NCBI GenBank assembly: GCA_021783515.1
Contig: JAJXTV010000026.1
Location: forward strand, 1 to 53,503
From: Nitrospirota bacterium
GTDB lineage: Bacteria > Nitrospirota > Thermodesulfovibrionia > Thermodesulfovibrionales > UBA6898
Direction of reading: 5' to 3'
DNA length: 53,503 nucleotides
Made by a program: the position numbers and the translations under genes. The notes below the pieces were generated by a model that saw only the letters and a program-made list of their open reading frames with translations, did no database searches and was not told the DNA's origin. Positions 40,861 to 50,402 of the stretch are shown here, piece after piece (position 1 is the first letter of the stretch; every line of letters starts with the position of its first letter).

Positions 40861-41454
40861 CTATTTCCCCCACCTCTTATAGATCTCATGCTCAACCCCC
40901 ATCAGGTCGAGGATCTTGCCCGCCACGAAATCGACCATGTCGTCGATCGTCTTCGGGCCGTGATAGAAGCCGATGACCGGCGGGGCGATCTTCACGCCTA
41001 TCCTGGCAAGCTTCAGCATGTTTTCGAGATGGATGGGGCTGAACGGCATCTCCCGCGGAGCAAGCACAAGGGGCCTCCCCTCTTTGATCGTCACGTCAGC
41101 CGCGCGCTCGATGAGGCTATTCGAATACCCGTTGGCGATCCCCGACAGGCTCTTCATCGAGCAGGGAATGACGAACATCCCGTCGGTCCTGAACGAGCCG
41201 CTTGCAACAGGGGCCTCGAAATTCCCCTCGTCGTACCAATAAATGTTTTTCGATCCGGCCAGCTTTCTTATCTTCTTCTCCATGGCCACCGCGTTCTCAC
41301 CCGAAAGGTCGACGCCGGATTCGTCCCGCAGGATCGAGAAGGACTGGCGCGAGATGATCATGTGGACCTCGGCTGTGCGGCCGAGCGCCTTCAGTACCCT
41401 CAGCCCGATGATCGGGCCGGTCGCGCCGGTTATCGCAAGGACGAATTTCTTCAT
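40861..41454 (-). CDS. ubiX: UbiX-family flavin prenyltransferase
   Basis: 197 residues from ATG 41454; the longer frame upstream runs through ubiA. VLAITGATGPIIGLRVLKAL, SGSFRTDGMFVIPCSMKSLSGIANG (FMN and phosphate site), RPLVLAPREMPFSPIHLENMLKLARIGVKIAPP. Makes prenylated FMN for UbiD-type decarboxylases. Start overlaps the ubiA stop by four bases. With UbiA and no ubiquinone genes visible, a role in menaquinone synthesis, for example the futalosine branch, is likely. Confidence 0.92.
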   Translation of the reverse strand: MKKFVLAITGATGPIIGLRVLKALGRTAEVHMIISRQSFSILRDESGVDLSGENAVAMEKKIRKLAGSKNIYWYDEGNFEAPVASGSFRTDGMFVIPCSMKSLSGIANGYSNSLIERAADVTIKEGRPLVLAPREMPFSPIHLENMLKLARIGVKIAPPVIGFYHGPKTIDDMVDFVAGKILDLMGVEHEIYKRWGK

Positions 41455-42311
41455 ACCAGGAAATCCGCCAGGGTAAAGAGGAAGACGGCAACGCTGATGT
41501 ATCCGTTCATATTGAAAAAAGCCATGTCGAGTTTGCTGAGGTCGTGCTCTTTTATCAGGGAATGCTCGTAGATGAAAAGGCCTCCGATAATGCACATGCC
41601 GGCCATGTACAAGCCGCCCAGACCGAAGATCAGCCCGTTTGCAACGAGGAGGAGATAGCTGACCGTATGAAATGCCCTCGCGAGATAGAGCGACTTCCTG
41701 ACCCCGAAACGCTTCGGCATCGAATAGAGTCCGTAACTCCTGTCGAACTCGATATCCTGGAGCGCGTAGAGCACGTCGAAGCCGGCCAGCCAGAAGATCA
41801 CGGCGATGACAAGGGGCAGTATCGCCGGGTCGAAGGAGCCTTTCACCGCCAGCCACGAGCCGAGTGGCGCCGCCGAAATCGAGAGACCCAGGACGAAGTG
41901 GGAAGACCAGGTGAACCGCTTCGTGTAGGAATAAAGAAAGAGGACGGCGATCGCAAGCGGCGAAAGCTCGAGACAGAGCGGGTTAAGCATATATGCCGCA
42001 TAGACCATTAGCCCGAACGAGACAGCGACAAAAACGGCGGTCTCGCCGACGCCGATGGCCCCACGGGGCAGTTCCCTGCCGGCAGTGCGGGGATTGGCGG
42101 CGTCTATCTTCCTGTCGATGATCCTGTTGAGACCCATCGCCCCCGACCGCGCCCCTACCATCGCCGCGACAATCCAGAAGATCTGTCGCGGGGCGGGGAT
42201 GCCCGATGCCGCGATCAGAGCGGAGGTGAAGGCGAACGGCAGCGCGAAGATCGAGTGGGAAAACTTGATCATCCTCAGATACAGCGTAATTTTCCGGGTC
42301 ACCGTGCTCAT
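41451..42311 (-). CDS. ubiA: UbiA-family prenyltransferase
   Basis: 286 residues, about eight membrane helices. First Asp-rich motif NRIIDRKIDAANPRT (with R after it as usual), second motif DIEFDRSYGLYSMPKRFG. Attaches a polyprenyl chain to an aromatic ring at the membrane. The ubiA-ubiX pairing is typical of menaquinone (MqnP-like) pathways in anaerobes. Divergent from the following regulator gene, with a 185-base gap. Confidence 0.92.
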   Translation of the reverse strand: MSTVTRKITLYLRMIKFSHSIFALPFAFTSALIAASGIPAPRQIFWIVAAMVGARSGAMGLNRIIDRKIDAANPRTAGRELPRGAIGVGETAVFVAVSFGLMVYAAYMLNPLCLELSPLAIAVLFLYSYTKRFTWSSHFVLGLSISAAPLGSWLAVKGSFDPAILPLVIAVIFWLAGFDVLYALQDIEFDRSYGLYSMPKRFGVRKSLYLARAFHTVSYLLLVANGLIFGLGGLYMAGMCIIGGLFIYEHSLIKEHDLSKLDMAFFNMNGYISVAVFLFTLADFLV

Positions 42312-46999: not shown

Positions 47000-47695
47000 T
47001 CAGTTTCTGGATCTTCTTGCGGCAGGCTTGATGTAGTCCACGAGGCCCCTGATCTCCTCATCGGTGAGGGGGCCGCCGTGTTTCGCGTCCCACCCCGGCA
47101 TCGAAGTTTTTCGGATGCCTTCCCTGAGCGCCTTTTCGATCTCTTCCCTCGCTTTTGCCTGCATTCCGGACACCGGCAGCGCACTCCTTCCTTCATTGTG
47201 GCACATGATGCAGTCGCTCATAAAAAGGCTGAACTTCTTCTGCGAGTTCCCCCGCTCGACATGGCAACCCCTGCAGGGGGCCTTGAATATCTCGTCGGCC
47301 TCGTACTTTCTCGCGTGGATCAGGTCCTTCACCCGCATCTTCATCAGGAGATTGGTCCGGCGCCTCAGGGGATCGTTCGTAATAACCTGGATCGTCTTGA
47401 CGATGGCTCCGAATTTGCCCCTCAGGTCCACCGTTACCTTGATCTCGCCTTTCTGTCCGGGCTTCAGATGGTCCGAACTGGCCATCACCGCGGTGCAGCC
47501 TCAGGACGGCGTCAGTTTCTCGATAATGAGCTCGCCGTCCCCCCTGTTTTCGATCTCGAAGACATGCTCGGCCTTGTCGTCCTGGCTGATGGTGCCGAAG
47601 TCAAATTGAGGCTTGTCGATATGCAGCACGGGCGAGGCATACGCCGATGAAGCGGCCAGGATAAGAAACAGTGTCAGGAAATACGTTTTCGCCAT
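47000..47695 (-). CDS. DUF1573 - dihaem cytochrome c, probable selenoprotein
   Basis: 231 residues if the in-frame TGA at 47501-47503 is read as selenocysteine (residue 65). Signal peptide (TYFLTLFLILAASSAYA), then a DUF1573 Ig-like domain with HIDKPQFDFGTISQDD and VFEIENRGDGELIIEKLTPS. Next is UGA-Gly-Cys-Thr-Ala-Val, exactly where the family has Cys-Gly-Cys-Thr. The domain continues with KVTVDLRGKFGAIVKTIQVITNDP. A C-terminal cytochrome part has two haem sites, CRGCH (141-145) and CIMCH (162-166), and a GGPLTDEEIRGLVDYI helix typical of cytochrome c. A hairpin with the features of a bacterial SECIS lies 21 bases after the UGA. Without read-through only 64 residues would be made and neither haem site. 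ATG at 47695. Confidence 0.82.
47467..47486 (-). promoter_or_regulatory. Candidate bacterial SECIS element
   Basis: On the minus strand, starting 15 bases after the UGA (apical loop 21 bases after it): GATGGCC, loop AGTTC, GG, one bulged A, CCATC. Seven base pairs with a bulge and a five-base loop having G in the second position, all within the rules described for bacterial SECIS (loop 16-37 bases after UGA, G among the first two loop bases). It lies wholly inside the coding sequence, as it must in bacteria. Confidence 0.6.
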
Positions 47696-47876: not shown

Positions 47877-50402
47877 ATGCAGAAGTTCATCAGGATAAAA
47901 GGCGCACGGGAGCATAACCTCAAGAATATCGACCTCTCGATCCCGCGGCAGGCGATCACCGTCATTACCGGCCCGTCGGGCTCGGGGAAATCCTCCCTTG
48001 CGATCGATACGATATACGCCGAAGGACAAAGGCGCTACGTCGAAAGCCTCTCGGCCTATTCCCGTCAGTTTCTCGACCAGCTGCAGAAGCCCGAGGTCGA
48101 TTACATCGAGGGGCTGTCCCCCTCGATCGCGATCGACCAGAAGACGGTCGGAAGGAGCCCCCGGTCGACCCTCGGGACGATCACCGAGATCTACGACTAC
48201 CTCCGCGTGCTCTATACGAGGCTCGGCAAGTCCTTCTGCTACAACTGCGGAACGGAAATCGCGACGCGGGAATCCGGAGACATCATCCGGGCGATCCTTA
48301 CGATGCGGGAGGGGACGAGGATACAGGTCCTCGCCCCGATCGTGAGGGACCGCAAGGGCAACTACCGGAAAGAGCTGCAGGAGATGCGCAACGAGGGGTT
48401 CGTCAGGGCGAGGATCGACAATGCCATGACTGACCTGACCGAGGACATCATCCTCGAGAAGAAGAAACGACATACGATAGAAATCGTCATCGACAGACTG
48501 ATCATCAGGGAAGGGGCGGAACGCCAGCTCAGGGAGGCGGTCGACACCGCTTTTAAGTACTCTGACACCGTCGTGGCAAACCTCGTCAAAGAAGATAAGG
48601 ACATCCTTTTTTCCAGGACAGCCGCATGCCCGAAATGCGGCATCAGTTATCCCGAGATCGTGCCTCGGTTCTTCTCGTTCAACAGCAAGGCAGGCGCCTG
48701 TCCCGCATGCGGAGGCCTCGGCTTCGAGAACGTCTCCGAGGACTCGTTCGATCTCGAAGGCCGCCGCCGATGCCGGGCCTGCAAGGGCTTCAGGCTGAGG
48801 CGCGAGGCGATGGGCGTCCGGTTTCAGGGGATGCATATAGGCGAATTCAGCAGGATGGCGGTGAGCGAGGCGCTCCGGTTTCTTGACGGGCTGCAATTGT
48901 CCGAGCGCGAGAGTATCATCGCAGCCCGGGTGCTGAAAGAAGTAAAAGACCGGCTCTCCTTTCTCATGCAGGTCGGGCTCGGGTATCTCACGCTCGACAG
49001 GCCTTCACTCACGCTTTCGGGAGGGGAGGCGCAGCGGATCCGCCTTGCCACGCAGATGGGCTCTTCGCTCACCGGCGTCCTCTACGTCCTCGACGAGCCG
49101 AGCATAGGGCTCCACCCGAGGGACTGCGCAAAGCTGCTCCGCTCCCTCGCGTCGGTGCGGGACGCCGGCAACACGATCATCATCGTCGAGCACGACGAAG
49201 AGACGATCCGGTGGGCCGACCATGTCGTGGATATGGGGCCGGGAGCCGGCGTCAGGGGCGGATGGGTCGTAGCCGAAGGGACGCCTTCCGGCATCGCTTC
49301 GGACGGAAGATCCCTCACGGGGCGCTATCTGAACGGCGCCCTCAGGATCGAAACACCGGCAGCAAGGAAAAGACCTCAGGAGTTCCTGTCGATCAGGGAC
49401 GCCTCGGAGCATAATCTGAAGCATATCGACGCCGACATACCGCTGGGGCTCTTCACCTGCGTCACCGGCGTCTCCGGCTCGGGCAAGAGCACACTCGTAT
49501 TCGACATCCTCTTCCGGGCCGCCGAGAGAAAATTGTCCCCCGACTCCGCCGCTCCCGCTGCCGGCAGCCACAGGGAGATCACCGGGCTCGACCTGCTCAA
49601 ACGGGTGATAAGCGTCGATCAGGCGCCGATCGGCAGGACACCCAGGTCGAACCCGGCGACCTACACCGGCTTCTTCTCCGCCATCAGGGAGCTTTTTGCC
49701 CTGCTGCCGGAATCAAGGGTCAGGGGATACGCCTCCTCCCGGTTCAGCTTCAACGTTTCCGGCGGCCGGTGCGAGTCCTGCAGGGGGAACGGGCTGATCA
49801 AGGTGGAGATGCACTTTCTCCCGGACGTATACGTCGTCTGCGACAAGTGCAAAGGCAGGAGATATAACAGCGAGACGCTCGATATCAGGTACAAGGAGAA
49901 GAATATCGCCGACGTCCTCGATATGACGGTCTCCGAAGCCCTTCAGTTCTTCGAAAATATTCCCCAGATCAGGCGGCGCCTCGAGGTGCTCGAAGAGATA
50001 GGGCTCGGGTATCTCCAGCTGGGACAGCCGGCTACCACGCTCTCGGGAGGGGAGGCCCAGAGAATCAGGCTGTCGCGCGAGCTCGGGAAGAAATCGGCGG
50101 GCGGCACGCTCTACCTTTTCGATGAACCGACGACGGGCCTTCATTTCTCCGACATCCAGAAGCTGCTCGACGTGCTCCGCATGCTCGTCGAAGAGGGCAA
50201 TACGGTCGTAGTGATCGAACACAATCTCGACGTGATCAAGTCGGCCGACCATCTGCTCGACATGGGCCCCGAGGGCGGAGAGGCGGGCGGCCGGATCGTC
50301 GCGGCAGGCACCCCCGAGGAAGTCGCGGCGAATCCTGAGTCGCAGACCGGAGCTTTCCTGAAGGAAAAACTCTCCGGCAGGCATGCGGGGGTCGCGGCAT
50401 GA
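47877..50402 (+). CDS. uvrA: Excinuclease ABC subunit A, short form
   Basis: 841 residues from ATG 47877. Both ABC modules are complete: GPSGSGKSSLAIDTIYAEGQ, TLSGGEAQRIRLATQ, VLYVLDEPSIGLHPRD; GVSGSGKSTLVFDILF, TLSGGEAQRIRLSREL, FDEPTTGLH. Zinc sites CPKCG...CPACGG, CRACK and CESCRGNG...CDKCKGRRYN are present. After ACPACGGLGFENVSEDSF it passes almost directly to GRRRCRACKGFRLR; the roughly 90-100 residues that normally separate these two are missing, which explains the short length. Part of the UvrB-facing/signature region is thus reduced. A TATAGT sits at about 47859-47864 with TTAACT 18 bases before it, giving a very short leader. Confidence 0.93.
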   Translation: MQKFIRIKGAREHNLKNIDLSIPRQAITVITGPSGSGKSSLAIDTIYAEGQRRYVESLSAYSRQFLDQLQKPEVDYIEGLSPSIAIDQKTVGRSPRSTLGTITEIYDYLRVLYTRLGKSFCYNCGTEIATRESGDIIRAILTMREGTRIQVLAPIVRDRKGNYRKELQEMRNEGFVRARIDNAMTDLTEDIILEKKKRHTIEIVIDRLIIREGAERQLREAVDTAFKYSDTVVANLVKEDKDILFSRTAACPKCGISYPEIVPRFFSFNSKAGACPACGGLGFENVSEDSFDLEGRRRCRACKGFRLRREAMGVRFQGMHIGEFSRMAVSEALRFLDGLQLSERESIIAARVLKEVKDRLSFLMQVGLGYLTLDRPSLTLSGGEAQRIRLATQMGSSLTGVLYVLDEPSIGLHPRDCAKLLRSLASVRDAGNTIIIVEHDEETIRWADHVVDMGPGAGVRGGWVVAEGTPSGIASDGRSLTGRYLNGALRIETPAARKRPQEFLSIRDASEHNLKHIDADIPLGLFTCVTGVSGSGKSTLVFDILFRAAERKLSPDSAAPAAGSHREITGLDLLKRVISVDQAPIGRTPRSNPATYTGFFSAIRELFALLPESRVRGYASSRFSFNVSGGRCESCRGNGLIKVEMHFLPDVYVVCDKCKGRRYNSETLDIRYKEKNIADVLDMTVSEALQFFENIPQIRRRLEVLEEIGLGYLQLGQPATTLSGGEAQRIRLSRELGKKSAGGTLYLFDEPTTGLHFSDIQKLLDVLRMLVEEGNTVVVIEHNLDVIKSADHLLDMGPEGGEAGGRIVAAGTPEEVAANPESQTGAFLKEKLSGRHAGVAA

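Follow-up and report, generated by a model that had tools for sequence, protein, structure and literature searches.

The window, the whole 53,503-nucleotide stretch of Nitrospirota DNA analysed here, carries on its minus strand what is almost certainly a genuine selenoprotein gene, probably encoding an exported electron-transfer protein in which a Sec-Gly-Cys pair and two haem sites share one chain. An initial annotation had proposed that an in-frame UGA in this gene is read as selenocysteine. This reading is strongly supported by homologues, by covariation in a downstream hairpin, by the machinery encoded in the genome, and by orthologues that carry Cys.

The read-through gene and its internal UGA

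The read-through protein comprises 231 amino acids when the internal TGA is counted as a residue. An ATG at 47693-47695 opens a 64-codon reading frame that runs to the TGA at 47501-47503, and the same frame continues beyond this codon to a second TGA at 47000-47002. The local context is Ser-UGA-Gly-Cys-Thr, and the full product reads MAKTYFLTLFLILAASSAYA/SPVLHIDKPQFDFGTISQ...LTPS-U-GCTAV...CRGCH...CIMCH...SMPGW. The coordinates, residue context, and hairpin given in the initial annotation were borne out by the reading of the ORF, the domain search, and the homologues.

47000-47695, minus strand: full-length coding region of the dihaem Sec-DUF1573 cytochrome c, from the ORF reading; close homologues L018 and L019 share the start Met
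47501-47503, minus strand: in-frame UGA, residue 65, read as Sec and replacing the first Cys of the CGC motif, from the homologue column

With the Cys-substituted window protein as query, a six-frame search across the order (176 genomes) matched 90 genomes, mostly with exactly one internal TGA. Thirty loci from this search were aligned with 40 further regions. UGA occupies the residue-65 column in all 38 cytochrome-fused UGA homologues of the order, in agreement with the earlier proposal that it stands in for the first Cys of the DUF1573 CGC motif, and also in 27 further, unfused DUF1573 domains. At the same column, six Cys-form dihaem proteins of the order have SCGCT or SCGCV, and the Cys-form dihaem protein of genome G078 has NCSCA. 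A phylum-wide search (396 genomes) recovered two Sec-form fused genes from outside the order (L200 and L201), together with Cys-form orthologues of the same architecture (L191-L196): TTSCGCTAALVS. Homologues with a Cys codon and homologues with UGA are both found, in one column.

A DNA pattern combining UGA-Gly-Cys-(Thr/Ala)-Ala with the SECIS loop was also run on GTDB species genomes. It matched 57 stretches, nearly all from Nitrospirota (Nitrospirae, Nitrospiraceae, Thermodesulfovibrionales); the remainder are two records with a bacterium number alone and one Candidatus Methylomirabilota MAG. The contig from this MAG (L176) carries the same Sec-DUF1573 dihaem fusion with a SECIS, either through horizontal transfer or through a binning error.

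Standard gene calling yields two ORFs here, 47501-47695 and 47000-47488. Taken at face value, this would make the UGA a plain stop or a sequencing error, and the locus a pseudogene or two genes, the second being a separate cytochrome of 162 amino acids with a GTG start at 47488. This downstream ORF lacks a signal peptide, and dozens of independent assemblies have their UGA in this very column. In eight gene pairs, dN/dS downstream of the UGA is 0.06-0.29, close to upstream values, which indicates that purifying selection acts on both sides of the codon. Conservation, selection, and the SECIS covariation described below rule out sequencing error, pseudogene, and two genes, and leave a plain stop with a negligible probability; the initial annotation had likewise accepted neither an error nor a plain stop. 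Automatic annotation would cut such genes at the UGA, masking a putatively exported Sec-haem protein that is kept across many Nitrospirota.

The SECIS hairpin and the selenocysteine machinery

The UGA is followed by a hairpin with the following parts.

47467-47486, minus strand: bSECIS hairpin, identified by covariation, a minimum free energy (MFE) of -8.8 kcal/mol, and published criteria
47480-47486, minus strand: 5' arm of this hairpin
47474-47479, minus strand: its consensus six-nucleotide loop, AGUUCG
47467-47473, minus strand: its 3' arm

Published bSECIS criteria specify a loop of 3-9 nt, a stem of 4-16 bp, a distance of 16-37 nt from the UGA, a G among the first two loop positions, and an MFE of at most -7.5 (PMC13188914). 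The window hairpin agrees with every one of these. It begins 14 bases past the UGA, with a UGA-to-loop distance of 21 nt, and has a G at loop position 2. One of its consensus pairs is C-A, and its best fold has a bulged A, a five-nucleotide loop (AGUUC), and 7 bp.

With the U of the UGA counted as column 1, the stem forms between columns 18-24 and columns 31-37, around the loop AGUUCN. Across 53 distinct sequences, standard pairs fill 91.9% of cells, compared with 79.1% in shuffles, both partners have changed in each of the seven pairs, and covariation scores 0.489, compared with 0.252 when shuffled. None of 500 shuffles equalled the observed paired fraction, covarying pairs, and covariation score, and slid structures score far lower. 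Between the published criteria and this covariation, the SECIS hairpin proposed from the window sequence is upheld. AGT serves as the loop codon in 50 of 55 genes, even though these genes use a mixture of Ser codons elsewhere.

The hairpin also separates the two forms of the gene. At least six of the seven pairs are kept in 53 of 60 Sec genes, compared with one of 20 Cys genes, and the mean folding z is -2.95 in Sec genes against +0.26 in seven Cys genes. The window hairpin (z = -1.6) is weaker than most in Sec genes because of its C-A mismatch. The Cys orthologues L192 and L194-L196 keep the AGTTC loop letters and have lost the stem, as expected if a SECIS has decayed or if the protein has simply retained its serines; they are possible traces of a Sec-to-Cys change. 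An Rfam search of the hairpin region returned no match at E values up to 5, which does not count against a bacterial SECIS.

The genome that contains the window is 98.7% complete and encodes the four selenocysteine genes named in the initial annotation, all above curated cut-offs: selA (598.5 bits), selB (372.7 bits), selC (67.6 bits), and selD (346.4 bits). The SelA and SelB genes are adjacent on contig C25, and tRNA-Sec lies on C17. The selD gene (L088; G000:C22:1771-2688) has one in-frame UGA of its own, and SelD is probably itself a selenoprotein here. Since selA is near-universal in the order (detected in 153 of 176 genomes), its co-occurrence with the UGA gene is uninformative as a test. 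At least seven genomes have a UGA gene and no detected selA. Further, G134 has a UGA form and is absent among the selA matches listed. MAG incompleteness is the likely, if unproven, cause, but three of these genomes with Sec-DUF1573 genes and no selA detected (G091, G094, and G101) are rated 96-100% complete.

An in-frame UGA by itself would also fit a general reassignment or suppression (code 4 or 25) that inserts some other amino acid. However, UGA terminates both the window gene and uvrA (ATGA overlap at 50399-50402), the Cys position alone is affected, and the genome combines a full Sec machinery with a hairpin that obeys bSECIS rules. UGA is a normal stop here, so general reassignment is ruled out, its probability being vanishingly small. 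On the evidence of sequence, the UGA at 47501-47503 almost certainly inserts selenocysteine.

Domain architecture and likely role

The remaining features of the protein, and the one recurring pair of neighbouring genes, are as follows.

47636-47695, minus strand: putative Sec-type signal peptide, residues 1-20, from the sequence; cleavage AYA/SP placed by eye
47339-47623, minus strand: DUF1573 (PF07610; ASH/PapD-like Ig fold), Pfam match at residues 25-119 with 85.1 bits against a gathering cut-off of 26.1, and model compared with PDB 2QSV
47495-47497, minus strand: Cys67, partner in the Sec-Gly-Cys motif, invariant in a 40-sequence alignment
47315-47317, minus strand: His127, candidate distal ligand of haem 1
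47261-47275, minus strand: haem-binding motif 1, CRGCH, residues 141-145, from sequence and alignment
47198-47212, minus strand: haem-binding motif 2, CIMCH, residues 162-166, from sequence and alignment
47099-47101, minus strand: Met199 of an invariant Met-Pro, candidate axial ligand of haem 2
47030-47230, minus strand: class I cytochrome c domain, Cytochrome_CBB3 match at residues 156-222 with 46.2 bits (Cytochrom_C, 29.2 bits)
40861-42311, minus strand: genes for a UbiA prenyltransferase and a UbiX-like flavoprotein, from neighbourhood comparison

The N-terminus is hydrophobic in most homologues and is modelled as a helix at residues 2-16. The genome encodes a ResB-type cytochrome c maturation protein (320.3 bits), and the window protein is presumably exported and then matured by the cytochrome c system. 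All 40 aligned proteins share Cys67, His127, the two CxxCH motifs, and Met199-Pro200, and the features of a class I c-type cytochrome are present: CxxCH, a downstream Met199, and Pfam cytochrome c matches. This invariance suggests that haem 1 is probably ligated by His145 and His127, and haem 2 by His166 and Met199.

An AlphaFold2 model (mean pLDDT 92) folds residues 24-123 into a beta-sandwich and makes the C-terminal part helical, with Sec65 in the turn that joins strands 56-63 and 68-72. In a fold search, the DUF1573 beta-sandwich matches PDB 2QSV (Z 15.5, rmsd 2.3, 105 residues), as well as ASH/PapD/MSP-like domains. Among the matches listed, fold hits span residues 19-125 only, so the cytochrome part is barely tested by structure.

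Because DUF1573 finds its closest fold matches among structural domains (it resembles ASH domains and PapD chaperones), it could be chiefly structural or adhesive, with Sec-Gly-Cys as a mere stabilising cross-link. Selenocysteine is, however, rarely spent on a structural bond. A further argument against such a role comes from an unrooted tree of the DUF1573 domain, computed from its alignment columns minus those of the Sec and the loop serines. Six Cys-form dihaem proteins lie apart from almost every Sec form, with starred support, and only one fused protein, the long-branch L055, has Cys within the Sec clade. The forks that join fused and unfused Sec forms are poorly resolved, and the placement of L086, a very long-branch Sec form that groups with the Cys forms, is unreliable. 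A chiefly structural role is therefore considered unlikely.

An exported electron-transfer role is probable from the sequence features. In the mechanism that we propose, the bSECIS in the mRNA would recruit SelB and Sec-tRNA, and UGA 47501-47503 would be decoded as Sec65, while the second UGA (47000-47002), without such a hairpin context, would act as a stop. The product would be exported, and the cytochrome c maturation system would attach two haems to it covalently, giving a mature chain in which an Ig-like DUF1573 with a Sec-Gly-Cys pair is fused to a dihaem c module. The Sec-Cys pair may then alternate between selenol/thiol and selenenylsulfide, passing electrons to or from the haems, and the protein could connect a thiol-type partner, which handles two electrons, to the pool of one-electron cytochromes in the periplasm.

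Selenocysteine usually serves redox chemistry. A redox couple feeding haem is favoured for this reason, and because haem lies in the same chain; the chance that the pair cycles in this way, rather than binding metal, is put at about even. The main rival, possible and less probable, makes Sec65 and Cys67 the ligands of a soft metal, such as Cu(I), Hg(II), or some other chalcophile, at a site whose redox state the haems would sense or drive. The protein would then be a metal carrier or metallo-redox protein, not a selenenylsulfide switch. UxC and CxC motifs are good soft-metal ligands and suit this reading. Within the same order, a SCO1/SenC domain (72.7 bits) is fused to a Sec-DUF1573 domain (L080:2235-3152), and the SCO1/SenC family is known for copper delivery. 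SCO proteins are also thiol-redox proteins, so this fusion is compatible with both readings and does not separate them. No further conserved set of metal ligands was identified near the motif, and no copper gene was recognised beside the window locus.

Gene neighbourhoods offer limited guidance. The Sec-cytochrome gene is divergent from the uvrA, ApbE, NusG_II, and Hpre_diP_synt_I genes, and its neighbours are mainly housekeeping (uvrA, ApbE, NusG_II, DksA, and PCMT). In seven relatives, the UbiA and UbiX-like genes lie directly downstream on the same strand, as the sole recurring neighbours there; in the window they lie 4.7 kb downstream, behind plus-strand regulator and small genes. This association is a hint, and no more, of quinone metabolism. 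Most Cys forms of the order adjoin rhodanese and MCP-like sensor genes. Around Sec-cytochrome genes, the neighbourhoods of relatives show no operon that is conserved and includes a known redox partner.

The window genome has two DUF1573 genes, both UGA-containing and both dihaem. The second (L049; G000:C14:53748-54398) is 48% identical to the window protein and has its own UGA and its own SECIS. Elsewhere, L079 (G049) and L084 (G051) encode proteins in which a CarboxypepD_reg-type N-terminal part precedes a pair of DUF1573 domains; an in-frame UGA in each domain (UxxCT and UKxAT contexts) gives two Sec per protein. A model of these CarboxypepD_reg-Sec-DUF1573 relatives reached a pLDDT of only 61 and was set aside; that their N-terminal part is cupredoxin-like is an impression only.

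Returning to the redox reading, we tentatively suggest that the Sec-thiol couple and the two c-type haems could form one intramolecular two-electron/one-electron converter in the Nitrospirota periplasm. It might be one of a broader group of Sec-DUF1573 modules that are placed on different periplasmic redox partners and in some cases have two Sec each.

Comparison with known selenoprotein families

The selenocysteine biology of this gene is ordinary; its architecture is the new part. A selenoprotein family named OS_HP2, with a pfam07610 domain and a UxC motif, was reported in the 2008 GOS selenoprotein survey (PMC2398784), and DUF1573 with a UGC Sec motif is listed in two selenoproteome catalogues (PMC9312934, PMC13188914). 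The window protein fits the OS_HP2 definition, sharing the DUF1573 domain and the substitution of Sec for the first Cys in CGC. The corresponding NCBIfam model, NF041425 (OS_HP2_seleno), matches residues 27-122 (E 4e-21) at 75.2 bits, below its curated cut-off of 100, which places the window protein outside that model. What the window protein adds is two haem motifs in the same chain, whereas the OS_HP2 entries listed name no cytochrome.

Nor is a cytochrome selenoprotein in itself new. In Geobacter, GSU2937+GSU2936 was predicted in 2007 to be a multihaem c-type cytochrome with selenocysteine (PMC1914089), and ExtKL (NF040886) is the cytochrome c family entry in a 2026 catalogue (PMC13188914); we read these two as one protein. 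Like the window protein, the Geobacter protein is a c-type cytochrome chain with a UGA-encoded Sec. In contrast, it has five CxxCH motifs upstream of the Sec and a C-terminal part without known relatives, and no DUF1573 was reported for it (PMC1914089). NF040886 is not among the NCBIfam matches of the window protein at E values up to 1.

The initial annotation did not recall DUF1573-cytochrome selenoproteins as an established family. This holds for the fusion, which was not found in the literature; it does not extend to its parts, since Sec-DUF1573 has been known since at least 2008 and a cytochrome selenoprotein was also already known. Two selenoprotein reviews that mention DUF1573 describe no cytochrome fusion in the passages found, and the spread of the fusion through Nitrospirota and the two-Sec relatives were likewise not found in the open literature searched. 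Within that scope, the Sec-DUF1573 dihaem fusion appears to be undescribed so far. The finding widens a selenoprotein family that is catalogued but functionally uncharacterised.

The closest solved fold to the DUF1573 part is PDB 2QSV, a Porphyromonas gingivalis W83 protein of unknown function, and the match takes in no cytochrome part. The nearest counterparts in architecture are the Cys-form DUF1573 dihaem cytochromes of Nitrospirota, which have the same domain order and both CxxCH motifs, with His127 and Met199 invariant in those aligned. They differ in that CGC replaces UGC, the codon is TGC or TGT, and the SECIS hairpin is mostly gone. This natural single-chain system allows one dihaem protein to be compared in its Sec and Cys orthologues, so that the reason for retaining selenium in periplasmic electron transfer becomes testable.
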